A stretch of 28,394 nucleotides of DNA from a virus, in the IMG/VR virus record IMGVR_UViG_3300033153_004338, positions 1 through 28,394 of that record; one strand, written 5' to 3'. Both the position numbers and the translations under genes were made by a program. Positions 662-27,098 of the stretch are shown in pieces. Under the pieces are notes generated by a model, which was not told the DNA's origin, searched no databases, and saw only the letters and a list, made by a program, of their open reading frames with translations. Positions within the stretch are counted from its first letter, which is position 1; each line of letters starts with the position of its first letter.

Positions 662-806
662 CTTTCTTCAAAGCATAAGCCTTAGCCGCTCTCTCTCTGT
701 TTCTAACACCCCAACAAGCCTTGCAGACTTTTAATCTGTTTATTCCCTTGTTAACAGTGCTGAATGCTTCCGGTGGTCTATCTCTTTTGCATTCTTTGCA
801 AATCAT
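648..806 (-). CDS. 52-aa zinc-ribbon micro-protein
   Basis: This short minus-strand gene begins at ATG 806 behind a good Shine-Dalgarno (AAAAAGGAG) and overlaps the preceding stop as ATGA. The protein has two CxxC knuckles (MICKECKRDR and KVCKACWG) about 25 residues apart and then a basic, Ala/Arg-rich helix. That pattern fits a small treble-clef or zinc-ribbon nucleic-acid binding protein, and resembles the N-terminal finger found on HNH endonucleases, without any nuclease domain. It is the last gene of the five-gene minus operon and runs into the end of the DUF5675 gene. Function unknown. Confidence 0.75.
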   Translation of the reverse strand: MICKECKRDRPPEAFSTVNKGINRLKVCKACWGVRNRERAAKAYALKKATQP

Positions 807-6257: not shown

Positions 6258-6485
6258 ATGGCGAATATTATAGACAACAAATATCTTTCAATAATGAGTG
6301 GTGTTTACACCGGTCAAGCGGGAAATTGTTTTATAAGAATACAATTTTTTAACTATGCCATTTTTTTAGGAAATAATCCTAATGGATATGGAATGAGATT
6401 GTTTTTCTTTGCACCAAACAGAGATGATGATTGGAAGTGTAATAAGTTTGCGCTTGAAAACACATATAAAGGAGGCAAGTCATGA
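6258..6485 (+). CDS. Hypothetical protein (75 aa)
   Basis: ATG 6258 follows AAGGGGTAAGAG. The product is rich in aromatic residues with strands such as NCFIRIQFFNYAIFLG and MRLFFFAPNRDDDW, suggesting a small beta-sheet protein. It overlaps the next gene as ATGA and marks the start of an accessory micro-gene cluster. No family recognised. Confidence 0.6.
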   Translation: MANIIDNKYLSIMSGVYTGQAGNCFIRIQFFNYAIFLGNNPNGYGMRLFFFAPNRDDDWKCNKFALENTYKGGKS

Positions 6486-6733
6486 AACTAACAAAAAACC
6501 AACATGCAGACATATACAACCACTTAGAAAACATCTCAAAAATGAAACTAAACGATTTAAGAGCATTTGATGAGAAGTGGAATTTTAACAAGCCAGACTT
6601 AGACAGTAAGGTGTTTGACTTTGTGAATCGTGGAGTTGTGAGTCAGTTGGCATATCTTATGGAGATGTCGGAAATATCGCCGATGGCGGTTGCGAGTGAG
6701 ATGATTTTAGATGATGGGAGTATAGAAAGATGA
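6482..6733 (+). CDS. Hypothetical helical protein (83 aa)
   Basis: AGGAGGCAAGTC precedes ATG 6482. The chain is predicted almost entirely helical (DIYNHLENISKMKLNDLRAF, SQLAYLMEMSEISPMAVASE). It overlaps both neighbours as ATGA. No motif recognised. Confidence 0.6.
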   Translation: MKLTKNQHADIYNHLENISKMKLNDLRAFDEKWNFNKPDLDSKVFDFVNRGVVSQLAYLMEMSEISPMAVASEMILDDGSIER

Positions 6734-16216: not shown

Positions 16217-16228
16217 AGCAAAATAAGG

Positions 16229-16306
16229 TATAATATAAATCTAGTTTGAGCCATTTAGCGGTGGCTCGTTTCATTAAAACTAGAAAACATAAACTAGGAA
16301 CTTCAA
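16229..16306 (+). ncRNA. HNH-associated structured leader, copy 1
   Basis: The leader contains a promoter TATAAT (16229-16234), outer arm CTAGTTT (16241-16247) pairing with AAACTAG (16277-16283), and inner hairpin GAGCCA/TGGCTC (16248-16253 with 16262-16267) with loop TTTAGCGG (16254-16261). A second AAACTAG (16291-16297) overlaps the AGGA ribosome site 7 bases before the endonuclease ATG. The 5' arm can pair equally well with either 3' arm. Copies 2 and 3 keep the same plan with compensating changes in the arms. Confidence 0.75.
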
Positions 16307-16921
16307 ATGAAAACTACACAAACAAAAATATGCAACAATTGTAAAATTGAAAAAATAAACACATCTTTTAATAAACATAAAAGAGGGAAGTTTGGCTTAA
16401 GAGCAAACTGTAAAAGTTGTGACAAGCATGAAAATAAACAGCACTCGAGAACAAAAAATGGGCTTATTTCAATAATGTACAGTAGCCAAAAGCACACCTC
16501 AAAGAAAAGAGGACATTCTCTTCCGTCATATACAAAACAACAATTACACAATTGGCTTTTAGATGATTGGCTATTTAATCTATTGTTTAGTAATTGGAGA
16601 AATTGTGGCTTTATTACAGAAATGAAGCCCTCGATAGATAGGTTAAATAACAATATAGGCTATTCTTTTAATAATATTCAAATTACAACATGGAGAGAAA
16701 ATCAATTTAACGCCTATCATGATATGAGAAAAGGAAAATTGACTGTTTCTAGAAGACCGCAAAAAAAAGTAGTTCAATGCTCTATGGATGACATCTATAT
16801 TAAAGAGTTTGTCTCTATGTCGGAAGCTGATAGAATGACAGGGATTGACCAAGCGTCAATATCAAAATGTTGCAACATGAAGCAAAAAACAGCAGGAGGC
16901 TTCACATGGTCTTACGCTTAG
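16307..16921 (+). CDS. HNH homing endonuclease 1 (NUMOD1-type)
   Basis: The 204-aa protein has an N-terminal CxxC...CxxC finger (Cys 9, 12, 35, 38), a basic region, an HNH-like core KPSIDRLNNNIGYSFNNIQI (107-126) with TTWREN, and a C-terminal NUMOD1-type DNA-binding segment (VVQCSMDDIYIKEFVSMSEA, then ISKCCNMKQKTAGGFTWSYA). Free-standing phage homing endonucleases cut a related genome lacking the gene and copy themselves in. It sits between the repeat protein and the fibre gene and carries its own promoter and leader. It is complete, so probably active or recently acquired. Confidence 0.85.
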   Translation: MKTTQTKICNNCKIEKINTSFNKHKRGKFGLRANCKSCDKHENKQHSRTKNGLISIMYSSQKHTSKKRGHSLPSYTKQQLHNWLLDDWLFNLLFSNWRNCGFITEMKPSIDRLNNNIGYSFNNIQITTWRENQFNAYHDMRKGKLTVSRRPQKKVVQCSMDDIYIKEFVSMSEADRMTGIDQASISKCCNMKQKTAGGFTWSYA

Positions 16922-16927
16922 TATCTA

Positions 16928-16936
16928 TGATATAAT
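16928..16936 (+). promoter_or_regulatory. Late promoter, extended -10 (TGATATAAT)
   Basis: TATAAT at 16931-16936 follows TGA, immediately after the HNH gene 1 stop, and is followed by ATTACACA. It should drive the fibre gene at 16961, restoring expression downstream of the inserted endonuclease gene. Confidence 0.65.
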
Positions 16937-16960
16937 TACACAAGAAGTAATGGAGACATA

Positions 16961-18457
16961 ATGAGTAAAATAAGATTTGAAATAACCACAACACCAAGCA
17001 CACCACCAACAGATAAAGTTTTTGTTTACATAGATGAAAGTGATAATCACATCAAGACTATTGATGATACAGGAACAGTTACAGACTTAACCGACACAAC
17101 AGCATACACAGACCAAGAATTTGCCGATAAAGTGGGAGCAGAAACAGAGTTGACTGGGGTTATGTCAATAGAAGATATTGTTTCTCTAAATACGGATATA
17201 AAAAAGATAGACATTATAGAGTTTAACTACTTTATACAAGGGACTAGATATAGTTATGCCGGCGGGACAGCAATAAGCCCAACAATCGGAGCAGGCGACA
17301 GCTCGACATGGGTGGGAGTAGATAGCTCTGGATTACTTTATAGCGAAACAAAATTCACAACAGAGCAAAATAAAACAATTCTGCCTCTTGCAAGATTGCA
17401 AGCAGTTCAAGGACAATCAGGATCAGGAAGTGATTTACAGCCTCCATTGCACTTAACATATTCTGAAAGTCAAAACGGTTTTGTAGACAGAGAATGGGTC
17501 GAGGGAGTTATTGGCGCGTTATATCAAACAGGTGGAACTTTCTCAGAGAATGCAACAAATGCACTACAAGTAGACCAAACATCAGGCTCTTTTCATAATG
17601 CTCAAAGAAAACACCTCGACATAACAGGAAGTTTAAATATCGAGGCTTCTGCTGTGTATCATGTTTCTGGAGCGCCGACAGTTCAAACAAGAGCGACATT
17701 AATAATTCCTAAATACTATGATAATGGCACAGACATAGTGGCGCTTGGCAATAATAAATATGCTTCACACACATTACTAAGAAGTCCGAAAGCTGATGAT
17801 GTTTTTTTCCTTGTGTATTCAAATGCTGAATATGCATCACAAGCAGGAGCAGAACAAGCACCAATAGACTATTCTGTTTTTGTAGACCAAGCTACCTCTA
17901 GTTTAATACCTGTTGCAAGATTTGTATTAAAAGGTGATAGCACAAATATTATAACGATAGTTGACGAAAGACCGTCCATCGGAGCAACACAATCGGCTAT
18001 CATCGGGACAGCTACCGTTCAGCAAGTGTACGATAACTCGACAAACCCTGAAATCATAACAGACTCTACGAGAGGTGCTTTAACGGTACAAGAGGGAACA
18101 GCAGACGATGCAGGACTAGTATATGAGGGCAGAAACAACGCAGGAACAGTCACTTCTAATGTAAATGGAGCAGGTGCAATTAGAGGGAGTGTAGCCTCAG
18201 AAGATAACACGATAGACTTTAGAACAGGCACACACTTTACCTTAACAGCAACCGCAGCAACAATGGGAACTCCAACGGTTACGGGATGTGTAGGTCAAAG
18301 TGGTACAATTACGATTACAACAGCGGAAAACATTACAGGATGGGACGGCTTATATTACTTTCCACAAGACACAGTTCCAACGGACTTAACAGGGATTGAA
18401 ATATTCGGCTATTTTGTAGAAAGTCTTACAGATATAAGAATAGGAAGGGTTCAATAA
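16961..18457 (+). CDS. Fibre-like structural protein
   Basis: This 498-aa protein has a low-complexity Thr/Ser/Asp/Gly-rich composition with repeated short beta strands (SASYVA-like, TLTATAATMGTPTVTGCVGQ), no transmembrane or enzymatic motif, and starts with a short anchor-like domain (IRFEITTTPSTPPTDKVFVY) common at the N-termini of phage fibre proteins. A C-terminal region mentions a ligand-like fold (DGLYYFPQDTVPTDLTGIEI). It is probably a receptor-binding or capsid fibre. ATG follows TGGAGACATA. It overlaps the next gene by one base. Which virion part it attaches to is not visible. Confidence 0.65.
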   Translation: MSKIRFEITTTPSTPPTDKVFVYIDESDNHIKTIDDTGTVTDLTDTTAYTDQEFADKVGAETELTGVMSIEDIVSLNTDIKKIDIIEFNYFIQGTRYSYAGGTAISPTIGAGDSSTWVGVDSSGLLYSETKFTTEQNKTILPLARLQAVQGQSGSGSDLQPPLHLTYSESQNGFVDREWVEGVIGALYQTGGTFSENATNALQVDQTSGSFHNAQRKHLDITGSLNIEASAVYHVSGAPTVQTRATLIIPKYYDNGTDIVALGNNKYASHTLLRSPKADDVFFLVYSNAEYASQAGAEQAPIDYSVFVDQATSSLIPVARFVLKGDSTNIITIVDERPSIGATQSAIIGTATVQQVYDNSTNPEIITDSTRGALTVQEGTADDAGLVYEGRNNAGTVTSNVNGAGAIRGSVASEDNTIDFRTGTHFTLTATAATMGTPTVTGCVGQSGTITITTAENITGWDGLYYFPQDTVPTDLTGIEIFGYFVESLTDIRIGRVQ

Positions 18458-19455
18458 TGTCAATGATGGTGTGTGCGAATGGCGGTAGCGAAAGTGAGCC
18501 GACAGGCAGTAATCTAGCTCTACTTGATTCGTATACAAGCTCTTCTTTAAACGCTGCATCAGGAATTGCAATATCTGGAGATGTCGCATATGTGGCAAGT
18601 GTAACAGCGGATTCAATCACCTCCATTGACATTTCCGACCCAACAAATTTAATAGAACTAGACTCCCACGCAAGCTCTAATCTAAATGTTGCATATGGAA
18701 TTGCAATCTCAGGAGATGTTGCATATGTGGTAAGTATTGTAGCAGACTCTATTACTTCAATAGATATTTCTGACCCGTCTAATTTAATAGAACTAGACTC
18801 TTATGCAAGTTCTACCCATTTAAACGGTGCTTATGGAGTTGCAATATCTGGAAATGTTGCATATGTGGTAAGTCTTACATCGGACTCTATCACCTCGATT
18901 GACATAACTGACCCCTCTAATTTAGTAGAGTTGGATTTTTATTCAAGTTCTAGTTTAAACGGTGCTTTCGGAATTGAAATATCTGGAAATGTTGCTTATG
19001 TAGTGGGTACAGTATCTGACGCTATTACCTCAATCGACATTACTAATCCAGAAAACCTAGTAGAGTTGGATTCTTATACGAGTGCAAACCTCAACAACCC
19101 AAAAGATATAGCAATCTCGGGAGATGTTGCGTATGTGGCTTGCTATGATTCCAATGCTATTACATCAATAGATATTTCTAATCCATCTAATTTAGCGGAG
19201 CTTGATTCTTATGCTAGTGCTACACATCTATCAGGAGCTTATGGAATTGCAATCTCAGGGGATGTTGCATATGTGTCTGGGTATACTTCACTTTCTATCA
19301 CCTCAATAGATATTACAGACCCAGAAAATTTAGCAGAGATAGATTTTTATACGGGAGCTAGTTTGAATGGAGCAAGACATATTGCAATCTCAGGGAACGC
19401 TGCTTATGTAGCGAGTTATACAGCAGATTCAATAACTTCAATTGACATAACATAA
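18457..19455 (+). CDS. Seven-bladed beta-propeller (LVIVD-type repeats), probable receptor-binding accessory
   Basis: After a short Cys/Gly start, seven near-identical repeats of about 45 residues follow. Each reads roughly L-x-x-L-D-S-Y-x-S, then xxGIAISGDVAYVxS and SITSIDIxDPxN. The AYV and SITSID strands are almost invariant, while the segment right after AYV varies between blades, as expected for a binding face. Seven repeats match a full propeller. Similar proteins in bacteria bind ligands or carbohydrates outside the cell. It overlaps the fibre gene stop (TAATG), so it may sit at the fibre tip. High DNA identity between blades makes it a recombination hotspot. Confidence 0.8.
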   Translation: MSMMVCANGGSESEPTGSNLALLDSYTSSSLNAASGIAISGDVAYVASVTADSITSIDISDPTNLIELDSHASSNLNVAYGIAISGDVAYVVSIVADSITSIDISDPSNLIELDSYASSTHLNGAYGVAISGNVAYVVSLTSDSITSIDITDPSNLVELDFYSSSSLNGAFGIEISGNVAYVVGTVSDAITSIDITNPENLVELDSYTSANLNNPKDIAISGDVAYVACYDSNAITSIDISNPSNLAELDSYASATHLSGAYGIAISGDVAYVSGYTSLSITSIDITDPENLAEIDFYTGASLNGARHIAISGNAAYVASYTADSITSIDIT

Positions 19456-19464
19456 GGGGAATAA

Positions 19465-20052
19465 ATGTATTTATACAACAACAACACAAAACAAAAAGAG
19501 AACTTCAAAACAAAACAGTATAGAGATGAAAATAGAAAGGCATATTTGCTTGAAAAGATAACAGACACACAGCTAAATGATTTAGGTCTATATAAGATAG
19601 CGATAGTAGGCTCACCTACACCAGCGAATCATCAAAAAATAGAGATACAAGTAGGCAGTATAATAAATGGTTTATGGACTGAGCCTAAAGTCTTAGTAGA
19701 TTTACCTATAGAGGATTTAAGAACAAAGCTAAAAAATCAGCTTAAAACTAAATCTAATGAAGTTGAAATAGGTGGCATTACAGTCGGTGAGATAGAAGTA
19801 GATACCACAGAAGCCGGACAATCAAAACTAAGCAATGCAGCATTTTTCTCTGATAAAAACCCAAACAAAGAACTAAGCTACCCAAGTGCTACAGGTTGGC
19901 AGAAAGTAACAAACGCTCAACTTCTGGCGATACATGATGCAGTAGGAAACCATAAGTCAAACACATACGACAACGAAATGGCTCACGACATAGCTCTAGA
20001 TAGTGCAGATTTAGCAACACTTCAAAGCTACGATATTTCAACAGGTTGGTAA
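19465..20052 (+). CDS. DUF4376 fibre-associated protein
   Basis: The C-terminal 100 residues match DUF4376: LRTKLKNQLKTKSNEVEIGG, then ITVGEIEVDTTEAGQSKLSN, and a closing TGWQKVTNAQLLAIHDAVGN. DUF4376 proteins typically accompany phage tail fibres, some acting in fibre assembly or as fibre parts. The N-terminal 80 residues are unlike it and contain an extended beta region. GGGGAATAA precedes the start, and it follows the propeller gene by 9 bases, so the three fibre-type genes form one operon. Confidence 0.75.
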   Translation: MYLYNNNTKQKENFKTKQYRDENRKAYLLEKITDTQLNDLGLYKIAIVGSPTPANHQKIEIQVGSIINGLWTEPKVLVDLPIEDLRTKLKNQLKTKSNEVEIGGITVGEIEVDTTEAGQSKLSNAAFFSDKNPNKELSYPSATGWQKVTNAQLLAIHDAVGNHKSNTYDNEMAHDIALDSADLATLQSYDISTGW

Positions 20053-21075
20053 ATGGCTAATATAACAACCTCATTAGCCGATATTTCAATTACAAGAGCT
20101 TTAATACTAGAGCGAGTTAAAAACGGTCTTAGTAATGATGTGGCTTTAGTCTATAAAGAAATTCTTGCAGAGATAGAAGCAAAGATAAGAAGCTATCCTG
20201 AAATGAATATCAAGAACATGAACAAGATCATCAAAGAGATAAAATCAAGTGTGACACCATCTCTAAACATTTATGACGATTTAGCAGACCTAGCAAGTCA
20301 AGAAGCTACATTTATGATGACCTCTATTAATTCAGTAGCCGGATATGACATTATGAGCAAAGTAGTAAATGAATCAACTATCAAAAAACTTGTAAACACT
20401 TCTTTAATGGAGGGAGCGACAATTTCTGATTGGTTCGGATCATTAGAGAAGTCAATTCAAACAGACTTAGAAAGACAAATAAAAATCGGTGTAGTATCAG
20501 GTGAAACAAATCGGGACATCGTTGAGCGTGTTAAAAATGTTATGAACACAAATATAAATCATGCCAAGTCAATAACAAGGACAGCAGTTTCAACAGTCAG
20601 TAATCAAGCGAGACAAGCTGTATATGAAGAGAATAGCGATGTGATTGACGGTTATGAGCATGTTTCAGTACTTGATTCTAGAGTTTCCCTGACTTGTAGT
20701 TCAAGAGATGGGGCAGCATGGGACCTTGAAAAAAAAGGACTCAACACACTAGGCAAGCAAAATAATTATAGAGTGCCTCCTCTTCATTTCAATTGTAGGA
20801 GCATTTTGGTCCCTATCATCAAAGCATGGGAGAACATGAAAGCCTCACTTAAAGGTAAAGTCCCTGAAAGCACAAGGGCTTCGATGGATGGAGCAGTATC
20901 AAGTAAAATTACTTTTAATAAGTGGTTTGAAGGAAAAAGTAGTACATTCCAAGAAGAATATTTAGGGAGGTCCAGATATGATTTATATAAAAAAGGGACC
21001 ATTACTTTTTCGGACCTAGTTAATCAAAGTGGAAGCGTTTTGTCTATTTCTGAATTAAAGCGAAAATATAGCTAA
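20053..21075 (+). CDS. Head morphogenesis protein (SPP1 gp7 / MuF family)
   Basis: The C-terminal half carries the family signature: RTAVSTVSNQARQAVYEEN (176-194), a DSR...C-SSRDG box (208-220), and PPLHFNCRSILVP (242-254). The first 170 residues are helical. In SPP1 and Mu, this minor head protein sits near the portal and helps DNA ejection or head assembly; in many phages it follows the portal gene directly. Here four genes and an endonuclease separate them, which is unusual. The chain extends about 80 residues past the signature without a recognisable toxin domain. Confidence 0.85.
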   Translation: MANITTSLADISITRALILERVKNGLSNDVALVYKEILAEIEAKIRSYPEMNIKNMNKIIKEIKSSVTPSLNIYDDLADLASQEATFMMTSINSVAGYDIMSKVVNESTIKKLVNTSLMEGATISDWFGSLEKSIQTDLERQIKIGVVSGETNRDIVERVKNVMNTNINHAKSITRTAVSTVSNQARQAVYEENSDVIDGYEHVSVLDSRVSLTCSSRDGAAWDLEKKGLNTLGKQNNYRVPPLHFNCRSILVPIIKAWENMKASLKGKVPESTRASMDGAVSSKITFNKWFEGKSSTFQEEYLGRSRYDLYKKGTITFSDLVNQSGSVLSISELKRKYS

Positions 21076-21082
21076 ATAATAA

Positions 21083-21164
21083 TATAATATTTTTCTAATC
21101 ATCGAGACCTTTAGCGGGGTCTCATCCATTAAATGATTAGAAAATGATTGATTAGGACCTACAA
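21083..21164 (+). ncRNA. HNH-associated structured leader, copy 2
   Basis: This copy has TATAAT (21083-21088), outer arm CTAATCAT (21095-21102) pairing with ATGATTAG (21133-21140), and hairpin GAGACC/GGTCTC (21104-21109, 21118-21123) with the identical loop TTTAGCGG (21110-21117). The second 3' arm TGATTAG (21149-21155) overlaps the ribosome site TAGGA. Its arms differ from copies 1 and 3 at several positions yet still pair, which is covariation. Confidence 0.75.
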
Positions 21165-22055
21165 ATGGAACAACATAACAAATGTACTCAATGCAACAAA
21201 ATAATAACAAAAGCAAAAAATAAATTTTGCAATAGAGAATGCTACTTACTATCTCATAAGATGAAATTCAGCACAATAGAATGTGCAAAGTGTGGAAAAG
21301 AATTTAAAAAGCAAACAACATCTATAAAATACGATAATAATTACTGCTCTAGCAAGTGCAGGACCAAAAAAGAAAGAGTTTTAACATGTATAGTCTGTGA
21401 TGTAAAGTTTTGTGCCTTCCAGTATAGAAAAGCAAACAATAAAAAAGGCTTCACAATAATAAGACCATTTAAAAAAGTATGTTCAAAGAAGTGTCATTAT
21501 GAGTTTTATAGAACGGACCAAAACAGAAAAGATAAAATATCAAAAGCATTTCTAGGAGAAAAACACCCTATGTGGGCTGGTGGAATTTCACAGCACAACA
21601 GCAGAGGTTCATCTTGGGCCACCATCAGAGAAGAAGTTTTTAAAATTAAAGGACACTGTTGCGAAAAATGCAAAATCAACAGAACGGACCATAAAAACAA
21701 ATATGGGATGGACATTCACATAGACCATATTATTCCATACCATTCTTTTGATACTGAAAAAGAAGCAAATGAAATTACTAACCTAAGACCTTTGTGTATA
21801 TCATGCCATGGGAAAGAAGGAAAAAAGACGGGCCACGGAAAGTATAAAAAGAAAAAAGATGAATTGCTCTTAGCAAAATTTAAAGCAACAGGCGTAAATG
21901 GATTTAAAGAATTGCAAGGAATAAAAAACGATTATGAAAAAGTTGGCAATCACAAATCTAACATAAGAGAAGTTATGAAAAAATATAATGTTAGCAAAGA
22001 TACGATAAGAAAGATTTCAAATGGAATTCATTGGTCCAACAAATATTTAACTTAG
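21165..22055 (+). CDS. HNH homing endonuclease 2
   Basis: The 296-aa protein starts with several zinc knuckles (Cys 7/10, 22/26, 40/43, 61/65, 75/78, 106/110), then the GEKHPMWAGGISQHNSRGSS region common in phage HNH proteins. The nuclease core has CCEKC (165-169), HIDHIIPYHSF (185-195) and NLRPLCISCHGKEG (206-219), giving the His-Asn-His metal site. A C-terminal helix-turn-helix (IREVMKKYNVSKDTIRKISN) binds DNA. Complete and intact. It shares only the leader, not the protein architecture, with HNH 1 and HNH 3. Located after the gp7-like head gene. Confidence 0.87.
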   Translation: MEQHNKCTQCNKIITKAKNKFCNRECYLLSHKMKFSTIECAKCGKEFKKQTTSIKYDNNYCSSKCRTKKERVLTCIVCDVKFCAFQYRKANNKKGFTIIRPFKKVCSKKCHYEFYRTDQNRKDKISKAFLGEKHPMWAGGISQHNSRGSSWATIREEVFKIKGHCCEKCKINRTDHKNKYGMDIHIDHIIPYHSFDTEKEANEITNLRPLCISCHGKEGKKTGHGKYKKKKDELLLAKFKATGVNGFKELQGIKNDYEKVGNHKSNIREVMKKYNVSKDTIRKISNGIHWSNKYLT

Positions 22056-22073
22056 CTAAAAGATTTAAAATAA

Positions 22074-22082
22074 TGCTATAAT
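22074..22082 (+). promoter_or_regulatory. Extended -10 promoter (TGCTATAAT)
   Basis: TATAAT at 22077-22082 with TGC in front lies just after HNH gene 2. No plus-strand gene follows before the convergent gene at 22154, so it most likely drives a short RNA. Confidence 0.55.
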
Positions 22083-22088
22083 ACATAG

Positions 22089-22156
22089 TCCAATTAAGGA
22101 CGACATTCTTCCTCCTGCACCTCTTTAAGCTGCATGTATTAAAGAGGTGTTTATTA
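22089..22156 (+). ncRNA. Candidate small RNA with CCTCCT linker and terminator-like hairpin
   Basis: Downstream of the TGCTATAAT box comes a weak GTCC/GGAC hairpin (22089-22101) and a pyrimidine-rich unpaired stretch containing TTCCTCCT. A perfect 11-bp hairpin CACCTCTTTAA/TTAAAGAGGTG (22118-22128 with 22139-22149, 10-base loop) follows, then TTTATTAT. The predicted transcript is about 65-70 bases. CCTCCT is complementary to strong AGGAGG ribosome sites, so it could repress translation of other genes. The hairpin could also just terminate transcription from HNH gene 2. Confidence 0.5.
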
Positions 22157-22528
22157 TAATCTTGTTATCTTCCTTTTGGCATCATCAAAAATAGTAACCA
22201 TTAATTTACTATCACAAAATGTGGTTAAGTCTCTTTTGTCAAACTTCACTACCATGATTGTATTATCTAATGAGAAACTTTTTATCGTGCCTCTACCAAA
22301 GCCCTCATAATCACAATAGACAAAATCGCCTACTTTTGGATTAACTAGCTTTTCTCTTTTATATAAGTGATTATACTTTTCTTGGAGCAGCACATCATAT
22401 AAAAACCATATCTGTTTAGAAGATAATATATATTTCTTATCCATCTGAACACTACTAAGACTATTGTTAACAACATCGTTCTTTAATGTATTCCATGTAG
22501 ATTTACTCAGTTCATATACTTTATGCAT
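22154..22528 (-). CDS. Minus-strand gene with Tudor/SH3-like C-terminus, moron-like
   Basis: The 124-aa product starts at ATG 22528 behind AAGGATAGTG (a GTG 3 bases upstream would be too close). An N-terminal helical region (YELSKSTWNTLKNDVVNNSL, then SSKQIWFLYDVLLQEKY) may be a DNA-binding helix-turn-helix. The C-terminal half PKVGDFVYCDYEGFGRGTIK then MVVKFDKRDLTTFC resembles the SH3/Tudor-type fold at the end of UvrD/PcrA helicases, which touches RNA polymerase. It is opposite to all other structural-region genes except HNH 3 and lies next to the TTATTCACA array, so it could regulate, or be regulated from, that array. Function not proven. Confidence 0.65.
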   Translation of the reverse strand: MHKVYELSKSTWNTLKNDVVNNSLSSVQMDKKYILSSKQIWFLYDVLLQEKYNHLYKREKLVNPKVGDFVYCDYEGFGRGTIKSFSLDNTIMVVKFDKRDLTTFCDSKLMVTIFDDAKRKITRL

Positions 22529-22595
22529 CACTATCCTTATGGTAGATTTATTTTCCGAACATAGTAAGTTTATCTAAAAAAGAAATAGTTGTAAA

Positions 22596-22758
22596 TGTGA
22601 ATAAGTGCCATATTTATAGTTATTCACATCTTATTCACATTTATAAAAATTCAATGTGAATAACTAAGCAAGTGTATGACGGATTTCTCTTAATGTTATG
22701 TGAATAAGTAGCAATAAATAGCATGTGAATAAGATGTGAATAAGTGAGATGTGAATAA
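22596..22758. repeat. Array of eight perfect TTATTCACA boxes (DnaA-box-like)
   Basis: The 9-mer TTATTCACA occurs in plus orientation at 22620-22628 and 22631-22639. It occurs as TGTGAATAA at 22596-22604, 22655-22663, 22699-22707, 22724-22732, 22735-22743 and 22750-22758. Several are 11 bp apart, one helical turn. TTATnCACA is the bacterial DnaA box and TTCAC is the reported core of Campylobacterota DnaA boxes. The flanks are AT-rich (for example 22561-22590). The array lies between the divergent minus gene and the scaffold promoter at 22782. It could be an origin, a DnaA sink, or the operator of the neighbouring regulator. Confidence 0.75.
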
Positions 22759-22781
22759 GTGCAAATTCTTTTTGCTATTTA

Positions 22782-22790
22782 TGTTATAAT
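22782..22790 (+). promoter_or_regulatory. Extended -10 promoter (TGTTATAAT) of scaffold gene with leader hairpin
   Basis: TATAAT at 22785-22790 follows TGT and lies 27 bp after the last TTATTCACA box. Just downstream, AGATGA (22800-22805) pairs with TCATCT (22811-22816). The scaffold gene starts 52 bp after the box, behind CAGAGGATAG. Confidence 0.6.
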
Positions 22791-22841
22791 TTTAGCAACA
22801 GATGATAGTGTCATCTATTAAATTATCCAGAGGATAGAAAA

Positions 22842-23429
22842 ATGGCAAAAACAGTTGAAGATATGGAAGCAGAGCTTTCAGAGCTGAAAGACAGTGTAAC
22901 AGCATTGGCGAGCAAGAACAAGGAACTTTTAGGGGAGCTTAAAACTGAGCGTAAAGCGAACAGAGAGAGCGATATTGATAGTGACAAGTATTATAAGCTT
23001 AAAGATGAGTTTGATGATTTGAAAGAGTCAAGCAAGAAAATGGAACACGAATTAAAAGGTCGTGATAAAGAGATTGTGAAACTCACAGAATCAAATACGG
23101 GTTTAAATACTAATCTTCACAATGTTATAGTGGATGGCGGTTTAACGGATAGTTTGGCAAAAGTAGGTGTTTTGCCGCATTTCATGGATGCAGCGAAAGC
23201 ACTCTTAAAAGGTCAAGTATCAATCGCAGACAATAAAGCAGTAGTAGGTGATAAGCCTCTTACTGATTTTATGACAGAATGGGCAGGCGAAGCCGGAAAG
23301 CACTATATCGGTGCTGCTGATAATTCAGGCGGTGGAGCAGGTGGGAATAAGAGTGGTGGCGGAAGTCATCAAGATACAAGCAATTTAAGTCCTAGCGAGA
23401 AGATGAAAGCTGGAAGAGGAAGTGCTTAA
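22842..23429 (+). CDS. Capsid scaffold protein
   Basis: The 195-aa protein is acidic and mostly coiled coil over its first 95 residues (DMEAELSELKDSVTALASKN, DEFDDLKESSKKMEHELKGR). A small helical domain follows (LTDSLAKVGVLPHFMDAAKA), and the end is Gly/Ser-rich (NSGGGAGGNKSGGGS). This is the typical scaffold (GP20-like) shape, and it immediately precedes the capsid gene apart from the inserted HNH gene. It shapes procapsid assembly and is removed before DNA fills the head. No protease is seen in the window. Confidence 0.85.
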   Translation: MAKTVEDMEAELSELKDSVTALASKNKELLGELKTERKANRESDIDSDKYYKLKDEFDDLKESSKKMEHELKGRDKEIVKLTESNTGLNTNLHNVIVDGGLTDSLAKVGVLPHFMDAAKALLKGQVSIADNKAVVGDKPLTDFMTEWAGEAGKHYIGAADNSGGGAGGNKSGGGSHQDTSNLSPSEKMKAGRGSA

Positions 23430-23437
23430 AAAAGGCT

Positions 23438-24124
23438 TTAAAATAAACGTCCGATTTCATTAGCAAACTGTATTGGATTTTTAGCGCCTTTTGATAAGTT
23501 ACAACCTCTACAACTCCAAACAACATTATCTAAAGTGTGAACTCCGCCTTTAGATAATGGCTGAACGTGGTCTAAATGAGTTCCATTCTTACTGCTAAAA
23601 TCTAGTTTTTCTTTGCAGTAGTAACATTTATAATTTTGTTTTATTTTTAATGCAGATAAAGACTCTCTATTAACAGTTCCATCTTCAGTAGATTTTTTAA
23701 TCGCTCTTCTTTTTAGGGTAGAAATTCTCAATCTTTCTCTATTGCTAATTAAATAATTCTCTCTGTTTTCTAAATATTTCTTTTTTCTTTTTTGTGCTAT
23801 TAATTGTTTATGATTTTTTCTATATTCAACGAGATAGGTAATCTTCTCTTCTCTATGTTCAGATTGATGAAGTTTTATTCTTTTTAAAATATGCTCTTTA
23901 TTAGCAATATAATATTCTTTCTTAGCTTTTTTTAAAGTTTCTTTATTTTCTGTTTCCCATTCCTTTCTTTTTTTGGTGAAATGTTCTTTATTTTTAGAGA
24001 TATAATCTTTTTTAATAGCATTAATGCATGGATAGCATTGTCCTCTATACCCATCTAAGGAGTCTTTTCTTTTTGGAAAATTTAATAATTCTTTTGTGTT
24101 TTTACATTTTGAGCAAGTTTTCAT
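23438..24124 (-). CDS. HNH homing endonuclease 3
   Basis: The minus-strand 228-aa protein starts MKTCSKCKNTKELLNFPKRK with CxxC...CxxC (Cys 4, 7, 30, 33), like the finger of HNH 1. A long Lys/Glu-rich linker (residues 40-140) follows. The HNH core is YKCYYCKEKLDF (166-176), THLDHVQPLSKGGVHTLDN (182-200) and SCRGCN (204-209). The ring of Cys and His residues is complete. It is inserted between scaffold and major capsid genes, opposite to their direction, so its expression opposes late transcription. The same leader as HNH 1 and 2 precedes it. Confidence 0.9.
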   Translation of the reverse strand: MKTCSKCKNTKELLNFPKRKDSLDGYRGQCYPCINAIKKDYISKNKEHFTKKRKEWETENKETLKKAKKEYYIANKEHILKRIKLHQSEHREEKITYLVEYRKNHKQLIAQKRKKKYLENRENYLISNRERLRISTLKRRAIKKSTEDGTVNRESLSALKIKQNYKCYYCKEKLDFSSKNGTHLDHVQPLSKGGVHTLDNVVWSCRGCNLSKGAKNPIQFANEIGRLF

Positions 24125-24201
24125 ATTGAAGCCCTAAGTTATATTTTCTAAGTCTATGAAACGAGACCCCGCTAAAGGTCTCAACTTAGATTTATATTAT
24201 A
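24125..24201 (-). ncRNA. HNH-associated structured leader, copy 3 (antisense)
   Basis: On the minus strand, TATAAT (24201-24196) precedes outer arm CTAAGTT (24189-24183), hairpin GAGACC/GGTCTC (24182-24177 with 24168-24163), and the identical loop TTTAGCGG (24176-24169). 3' arm 1 is GACTTAG (24154-24148, one G-U pair) and 3' arm 2 is AACTTAG (24140-24134, a perfect match), which ends in TAGGG before ATG 24124. The layout is the same as the other two copies, with different arm sequences. Plus-strand readthrough from scaffold to capsid would transcribe its complement. Confidence 0.75.
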
Positions 24202-26404: not shown

Positions 26405-26752
26405 ATGGCAACAATTACAGCAAGTGATGCGAGCGGAAGCGGCGAAACAATCATAACAGAGACTACATTAACAGCCTCAGACACATTTACTTATGTAGGT
26501 GGAGGGAATCAATACCTTATGCTTAGAAACGAATCAGCAGGCGCATTGACTCCAAACATTTTAGGCGATGCTGTATCAACAGTTTCAGTTTCAGGTGCGG
26601 GGAATCTTGATATTTCTGCCGGATATACTACTGCTTCAATCGCAATTGGTGAAACAGCGGTAATCAGAACAAGCACTATAGAAAAATATCTAACTGGTGT
26701 AATTGAGATTACAGGCGGCACGGACATAGAAGCTTCGTTAGTCGAGTATTGA
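26405..26752 (+). CDS. Putative virion structural protein (115 aa)
   Basis: The product is rich in Thr, Ser, Gly and Ala, and alternates short strands (ITASDASGSGETIITETTLT, YLMLRNESAGALTPNILGDA), suggesting a beta-sandwich or decoration protein. It has its own extended -10 promoter and AAAAAGGATT ribosome site. It sits between the adaptor and head-closure genes. No family recognised with confidence. Confidence 0.55.
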   Translation: MATITASDASGSGETIITETTLTASDTFTYVGGGNQYLMLRNESAGALTPNILGDAVSTVSVSGAGNLDISAGYTTASIAIGETAVIRTSTIEKYLTGVIEITGGTDIEASLVEY

Positions 26753-26756
26753 TATT

Positions 26757-27098
26757 ATGGCTAAATTTGACTATGAGAGTGTAACAGCAACAGCGAAAAG
26801 TCTTATAGACGAATTTGGTCGAGAAATTACTTTAAAAGTAGTGACAAACAGCGGTACGGAGTGGAATCCTACTCAATCAGAAGTAGTTTCCACTATTACC
26901 GCTGTATTTACAAACTTCTCAAAGAATGAGATAGATAATGTTCTTATTCTTGCTACTGACAAAAAGCTTCTCTCTTATGAAGAAATCTCATTGACTGACT
27001 TTATCCTAGACGATGGCATTGATTATAAAGTTATGAATGTTGACACTATTCAAACAGGCGATATTAAGATAATATTCAAAGCACAGCTCAGGAGGTAA
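26757..27098 (+). CDS. Head-tail closure/adaptor-like protein
   Basis: The 113-aa protein has an N-terminal helix (YESVTATAKSLIDEFGREIT), a beta region (LKVVTNSGTEWNPTQSEVVS) and a compact SH3-like C-terminal part (DDGIDYKVMNVDTIQTGDIK, FKAQLRR). Position between the adaptor and gp10-like genes, length and fold prediction suit a head-closure protein of the SPP1 gp16/HK97 gp7-like class, which blocks the portal channel after packaging. Confidence 0.65.
   Translation: MAKFDYESVTATAKSLIDEFGREITLKVVTNSGTEWNPTQSEVVSTITAVFTNFSKNEIDNVLILATDKKLLSYEEISLTDFILDDGIDYKVMNVDTIQTGDIKIIFKAQLRR

Follow-up and report, generated by a model that had tools for sequence, protein, structure and literature searches.

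A structured leader shared by distinct phage endonuclease genes is probably a portable on/off translation switch

Why should several endonuclease genes of one phage stand behind the same structured leader, and what might this leader do for them? The question is raised by the window, the whole stretch of 28,394 nt analysed here (IMG/VR record IMGVR_UViG_3300033153_004338), in which an earlier note had described three such leaders, each with TATAAT, an outer stem, a 6-bp hairpin, and an SD followed by ATG. These features were confirmed for all three at the positions given there (Table 1). As to the general plan, the outer stem and the hairpin stood up to inspection, but the note had overlooked that each window leader contains two copies of the 3' outer arm, the second of which is fused to, and overlaps, the SD. 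The conserved architecture of all three window leaders thus reads TATAAT, 6 nt, 5' arm X, hairpin P2, X' copy 1, X' copy 2, 8 nt, and ATG. This leader structure is well supported, and the leader is probably a portable on/off translation switch for selfish mobile genes.

Table 1. Leaders and endonuclease genes of the window and of related phage records. Blocks are given in the order arm / hairpin / spacer / copy 1 / gap / copy 2 with SD / 8 nt / ATG.
Feature	Positions	Strand	Remarks
Leader 1	16229-16306	+	CTAGTTT / GAGCCA-TTTAGCGG-TGGCTC / GTTTCATTA / AAACTAG / AAAACAT / AAACTAGG / AACTTCAA / ATG
Leader 1, -10 box TATAAT	16229..16234	+	TTGAAC 17 nt upstream
Leader 1, 5' arm X CTAGTTT	16241..16247	+	predicted first mRNA bases
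Leader 1, hairpin P2 GAGCCA-TTTAGCGG-TGGCTC	16248..16267	+	
Leader 1, copy 1 AAACTAG	16277..16283	+	partner of X in P1a
Leader 1, copy 2 AAACTAGG	16291..16298	+	includes SD; partner of X in P1b
Endonuclease gene 1	16307..16921	+	204 aa, endonuclease VII/HNH-like, NUMOD-like C-terminus
Leader 2	21083-21164	+	CTAATCA(TC) / GAGACC-TTTAGCGG-GGTCTC / ATCCATTAAA / TGATTAG / AAAATGAT / TGATTAGG / ACCTACAA / ATG
Leader 2, -10 box	21083..21088	+	
Leader 2, 5' arm X CTAATCA	21095..21101	+	
Leader 2, hairpin P2 GAGACC-TTTAGCGG-GGTCTC	21104..21123	+	
Leader 2, copy 1 TGATTAG	21134..21140	+	
Leader 2, copy 2 TGATTAGG	21149..21156	+	includes SD
Endonuclease gene 2	21165..22055	+	296 aa, HNH PF01844, partial NUMOD3
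Leader 3	24201-24125	-	CTAAGTT / GAGACC-TTTAGCGG-GGTCTC / GTTTCATA / GACTTAG / AAAATAT / AACTTAGG / GCTTCAAT / ATG
Leader 3, -10 box	24196..24201	-	TTGTAA 17 nt upstream
Leader 3, 5' arm X CTAAGTT	24183..24189	-	
Leader 3, hairpin P2 GAGACC-TTTAGCGG-GGTCTC	24163..24182	-	
Leader 3, copy 1 GACTTAG	24148..24154	-	
Leader 3, copy 2 AACTTAGG	24133..24140	-	includes SD
Endonuclease gene 3	23438..24124	-	228 aa, HNH/HNH_5; antisense to neighbouring head genes
L007 leader	688-767		86% related phage, before orthologous gene 3
L113 leader	6296-6377		different phage
L140 leader	19402-19481		on the G002 record, 44.6 kb
L141 leader	6481-6558		on the same 44.6-kb G002 record as L140
G002 HNH gene after L141 leader	L141 5470-6483		337 aa
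Broken endonuclease gene behind family leader	L113 5656-6377		frameshift
Broken endonuclease gene behind family leader	L124 551-1302		stop codon

Since copy 2 contains SD bases, X can either leave the SD free by pairing with copy 1 (P1a) or cover it by pairing with copy 2 (P1b), both helices being predicted. The earlier statement that the outer arms all pair holds overall, but GACTTAG of leader 3 does so via one U-G, whereas its second copy, AACTTAG, pairs perfectly. Leaders 1, 2, and 3 fold better than dinucleotide-shuffled sequences (z = -2.8, -3.1, and -2.3, respectively), and the triplet of arm, copy, and copy arises in 0.15–0.56% of shuffled window leaders. Placed at 6 nt, this triplet occurs upstream of five among 203 ORFs of at least 60 aa in the four phage records, and all five are family leaders.

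The family has seven members in four kinds of phage (the window phage, L007, L113, and G002), four of them beyond the three of the window. The latter four were found with patterns on separate leader parts and with the covariance models R1 and R2; the L141 leader was missed by all patterns and was recovered by the covariance model at E 4e-12, and a contig near-identical to the window (99.5%) was matched as well. G002 and the window phage are distantly related (terminase 69%, portal 49%). The terminase of L113 is closest to that of a Thiohalocapsa phage (31%), and in a tblastn comparison the endonuclease was the sole gene common to L113 and the window. Two distances are constant in the family, 6 nt from the -10 box to the arm and 8 nt from the SD to ATG, while the inner spacers differ in length. 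The covariance-model search that the earlier note had proposed did yield further members, and the association is exclusive: all seven leaders lie directly upstream of HNH/endonuclease-VII-like genes.

Other searches gave little. A loose pattern had 23 matches in viral contigs, most of them due to chance and one a recurrent coding sequence; a search for the GAGNCN hairpin returned near relatives and chance matches, and comparison of the leader DNA with annotated phages chance matches only. The strict leader pattern had no match in genome contigs. Apart from the window's near relatives, the leader was absent upstream of viral HNH relatives among the matches listed, and it was likewise absent from 40 whole viral records, from six regions around gene-1 relatives, and from the two betaproteobacterial records that capsid relatives in genome contigs led to. 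No match to the covariance model was obtained in 399 Pseudomonadota genomes, and the host is probably outside these. Judging by its absence from the listed HNH relatives, the 40 viral records, and the 399 genomes, the leader seems rare or lineage-bound in searchable collections. Searches of the open-access literature retrieved no description of such a shared leader, which does not prove its absence. Protein 1 has its best annotated relative, by E-value, in Nitratiruptor phage NrS-4 (43%), and relatives of the terminase occur in Helicobacter pullorum prophages; on these grounds a Campylobacterota host is a reasonable guess from sequence, whereas the capsid points elsewhere.

The endonucleases encoded downstream of the leaders comprise 204–337 aa. 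To call the three window genes unrelated, as was done initially, proved too strong for proteins 1 and 3, which both match phrog_1035 (endonuclease VII), but protein 2 is indeed distinct (PF01844). The description of protein 1 as HNH found no match in Pfam, which gave sub-threshold NUMOD-type C-terminal matches only, but PHROGs grouped the protein with endonuclease VII/HNH families; its predicted structure was uninformative (pLDDT 35). In the other phages, the L113 leader precedes a relative of gene 1 (33%) with a frameshift, and the L140 leader a relative of gene 3 (38%) with an internal stop. The 337-aa gene after the L141 leader and window gene 2 are orthologous (39% identical) and share one site, each following the same minor head gene. 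The HNH domain of the L141 gene, by contrast, resembles that of window gene 3 (43%), so that the L141 gene and window gene 2 have a zinc-finger region in common and different HNH domains, as after a domain swap. The broken genes are consistent with endonuclease decay or with sequencing error. Homing endonuclease genes usually decay in this manner once they are fixed.

Further HNH genes and repeats were observed in these phages. The 86% related phage carries a fourth HNH gene, of the AP2 type (L007 3308-3885, minus strand), as an insertion absent from the window at 26752-26757. Its leader is different: a 15–16-bp hairpin carries the loop UCCUACAUCCA, 11 nt of which are complementary to the SD segment UGGAUGUAGGA. 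Such a leader could conceal the SD of an HNH gene by another design, unrelated to that of the family. A small HNH gene of 112 aa without the family leader (L031 4559-4897, plus strand) lies beside the scaffold gene of the related phage, which indicates a high turnover of HNH genes in the scaffold-gene region. In the window itself, a repeat array around GTGAATAAGTG is located between gene 2 and the scaffold gene (22570-22770), with AGATGTGAATAAGTG in tandem at 22732-22761, and a net 30-nt difference to the sister contig within 18165-25082 is possibly a change in repeat number. The gene at 18457-19455 consists of about six 135-nt repeats, by eye beta-propeller-like, and its relative in the 86% related phage is part of a 1091-aa protein.

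As MAFFT misaligned the leaders, covariation was counted on model-fitted and hand alignments. There are three arm alleles (GTTT, ATCA, and AGTT), each of them mirrored in copy 1 and in copy 2, and P2 changes by compensation too, separately from the arms. In the model-fitted alignment A3 (seven rows, with copy 2 of L113 misplaced), 97.9% of the cells of P1a and P2 are paired and 8 pairs are changed on both sides; pairing drops to about 48% when the structure is slid by one column. For P1b and P2 these values are 96.8% and 8 pairs. The covariation scores are 0.544 against 0.183 shuffled for P1a and P2, and 0.469 against 0.177 for P1b and P2, each reached in 0 of 500 shuffles, numbers that are not to be taken as probabilities in a sample of seven related sequences that represent four kinds of phage and three arm alleles, where relatedness inflates covariation. 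The hand alignment, which excludes the near-duplicate L007, has 47 of 48 positions paired in P1a, 48 of 48 in P1b, and 35 of 36 in P2, and strand permutations place them in best classes of 8/720, 8/720, and 2/720, respectively. The compensating changes reported earlier are thereby substantiated for the arm alleles and P2 alike, well above the shuffled null. An additional pairing of the spacer with copy 1 (P3) is suggestive only.

On balance, we favor the reading that the leader is a cis-regulatory cassette, which would restrain the translation of free-standing HNH/endonuclease-VII homing endonucleases via a bistable SD switch. Such a cassette would be self-contained, comprising a -10 promoter, a 5' structured RNA, the SD, and the start codon. 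Transcription probably starts at or beside the 5' arm, because the -10 box is always 6 nt away from it. In the emerging RNA, X would first pair with the decoy copy 1, and the resulting P1a would stack on hairpin P2. As soon as copy 2 has emerged, it would compete for X at almost equal energy, and since its pairing with X in P1b would hide the SD, translation of the endonuclease would be low or conditional. The G of the SD lies inside P1b in all seven members. According to nearest-neighbour predictions for the isolated RNA, P1a and P1b are only 0.2–1.3 kcal/mol apart in six of the seven members when the leader is folded alone, and G002-HNH2 favors P1b by 2.6 kcal/mol. Predicted folding of the growing chain yields P1a alone at first, and P1b makes up 0.41–0.87 of the ensemble after copy 2 is complete; inclusion of coding or upstream sequence in the fold shifts the balance, mostly to P1a. 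This balance could be set by the folding itself, by the arrival of the ribosome, by a 5' extension on read-through transcripts, or possibly by a factor that reads the P2 loop. Computation thus supports the conserved architecture, the covariation of P1a, P1b, and P2, the near-equal predicted energies, and the exclusive association with endonuclease genes, from which we infer a regulatory role of the leader, its direction, an action on translation in vivo, the state that would prevail at a given time, and any trigger.

Could P1a and P2 alone matter? They might protect the 5' terminus of the mRNA from 5'-end-dependent decay or space the ribosomes, in which case copy 2 would have arisen incidentally through local duplication or template switching. 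Indeed, the predicted 5' end of the mRNA is where P1a begins, six of the seven members have P1a as their minimum-energy fold, and replication errors can homogenise perfect repeats. We nevertheless consider this unlikely, because copy 2 tracks the arm in all three alleles and G002-HNH2 not only prefers P1b but also has a P1b-specific change, with CCTA replacing TCTA, so that a C-G pair is gained with copy 2 and a C-A mismatch arises with copy 1. Alternatively, the arm might be a DNA operator to which the endonuclease itself binds, the hairpin being incidental. One inverted and two direct arm copies are located beside the promoter and overlap the probable start site, and I-TevI autorepresses its transcription via an operator over its own promoter (PMC2988022). 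Such autorepression appears quite unlikely here: one arm allele, CTAAGTT, is common to three HNH3-type genes, but the alleles otherwise cross gene families, CTAGTTT being found with window gene 1 and G002 HNH2 and CTAATCA with window gene 2 and the L113 relative of gene 1. Moreover, the compensatory changes in P2 are separate, and copy 2 is tied to the SD at a constant distance from ATG. A third proposal is a start-codon lock, in which the spacer after P2 (TTTCAT/TCCAT) pairs with the AUG region over 5–7 bp, a pseudoknot keeps P1a, too, in an OFF state, and repression by the RNA proceeds in several steps. The spacer does pair with AUG and codon 2 in all seven members (CATT with AATG, CATA with TATG, TTTCAT with ATGAAA, and TCCAT with ATGGA), but this covariation is within the permutation range (72/720) and the pairing is singly non-significant in two members, which renders the lock improbable. 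Finally, it is highly improbable that this structured element, despite adjoining an HNH gene, serves the endonuclease as an IscB/HEARO-like guide or scaffold RNA or acts in mobility as a folded DNA element, as it has only about 66 nt and no Rfam match, is fixed to promoter and SD, and lacks a conserved variable guide segment. Two further ideas were rejected: P2 is no terminator, as no U run follows it, and an antisense target of its loop was not apparent, since CCGCTAAA occurs once on the plus strand outside the leaders (14720, portal gene), which is about chance.

The bistable SD switch would also be portable. The homology of leaders 1 and 3 begins at the -10 box and ends near codon 3 (16228-16315; 82%), and the common unit is thus a promoter-leader-start cassette. 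The modularity noted earlier was supported, as endonuclease genes of different types stand behind one leader in phages as unlike as the window phage and L113. The loop reported as identical is so within the window but not in the family; it follows the phage, with TTTAGCGG in the window phage, L007, and L113 and C/TTAATTA in G002. Unlike the P2 loop, the arm alleles track neither phage nor gene. It is conceivable, if rather doubtful, that the cassette from TATAAT to about codon 3 is a mobile modular switch with a decoy of the SD segment, swapped among distinct selfish genes and phages independently of the endonuclease, and that a host or phage factor reads the phage-type loop (TTTAGCGG or C/TTAATTA). 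If one homologous leader serves different endonucleases, selfish genes would exchange a ready-made module for expression control. The leader would then offer a small bistable RNA of natural origin, with an SD and its decoy, the logic of which a few point mutants could test. If this is true, it would also be a new family of RNAs by which homing endonucleases of uncultured phages could be recognised. RNA structure is known to control homing endonucleases chiefly in T4-like phages, and there gene by gene.

Among known systems, the leader resembles the HEARO/IscB omega RNA in being a structured RNA upstream of an HNH gene, but it is much shorter and holds the promoter and SD of the gene. The earlier view that it is not of this type agrees with Rfam, in which it has no match at the gathering threshold and nothing relevant at E<=5. 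Type I toxin leaders (hok, aapA3) offer another parallel, namely alternative pairings around the SD that exchange co-transcriptionally; an example is the aapA3 toxin mRNA of Helicobacter, in which hairpins that hide the SD can exchange during transcription (PMC6733600). In contrast to these, no antisense RNA is apparent here, there is no long-distance 5'-3' lock, the SD segment has a decoy copy, and the downstream genes encode endonucleases of 204–337 aa instead of a small toxin ORF. In phages T4 (I-TevI, I-TevII, I-TevIII, and segB) and Aeh1 (mobE), the RBS is hidden in RNA structure, and an adjacent late promoter yields transcripts that escape this structure (PMC2988022; PMC3014915). Similarly, upstream RNA is predicted here to pair with the SD of a homing-endonuclease-type gene, a promoter adjoins the structure, and the purpose would be to limit or time endonuclease translation. 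However, the promoter precedes the whole structure in our leaders. As the -10 box ends 6 nt before the arm in all seven members, the transcript from the cassette's own promoter should, given the predicted start, keep the arm and with it the structure, and the timing logic may therefore differ from that of T4 and Aeh1. In further contrast to these systems, the 5' arm has two alternative partners, a decoy and an SD copy, with a hairpin inserted, and several distinct endonucleases, in different phages, stand behind homologous copies of one leader.
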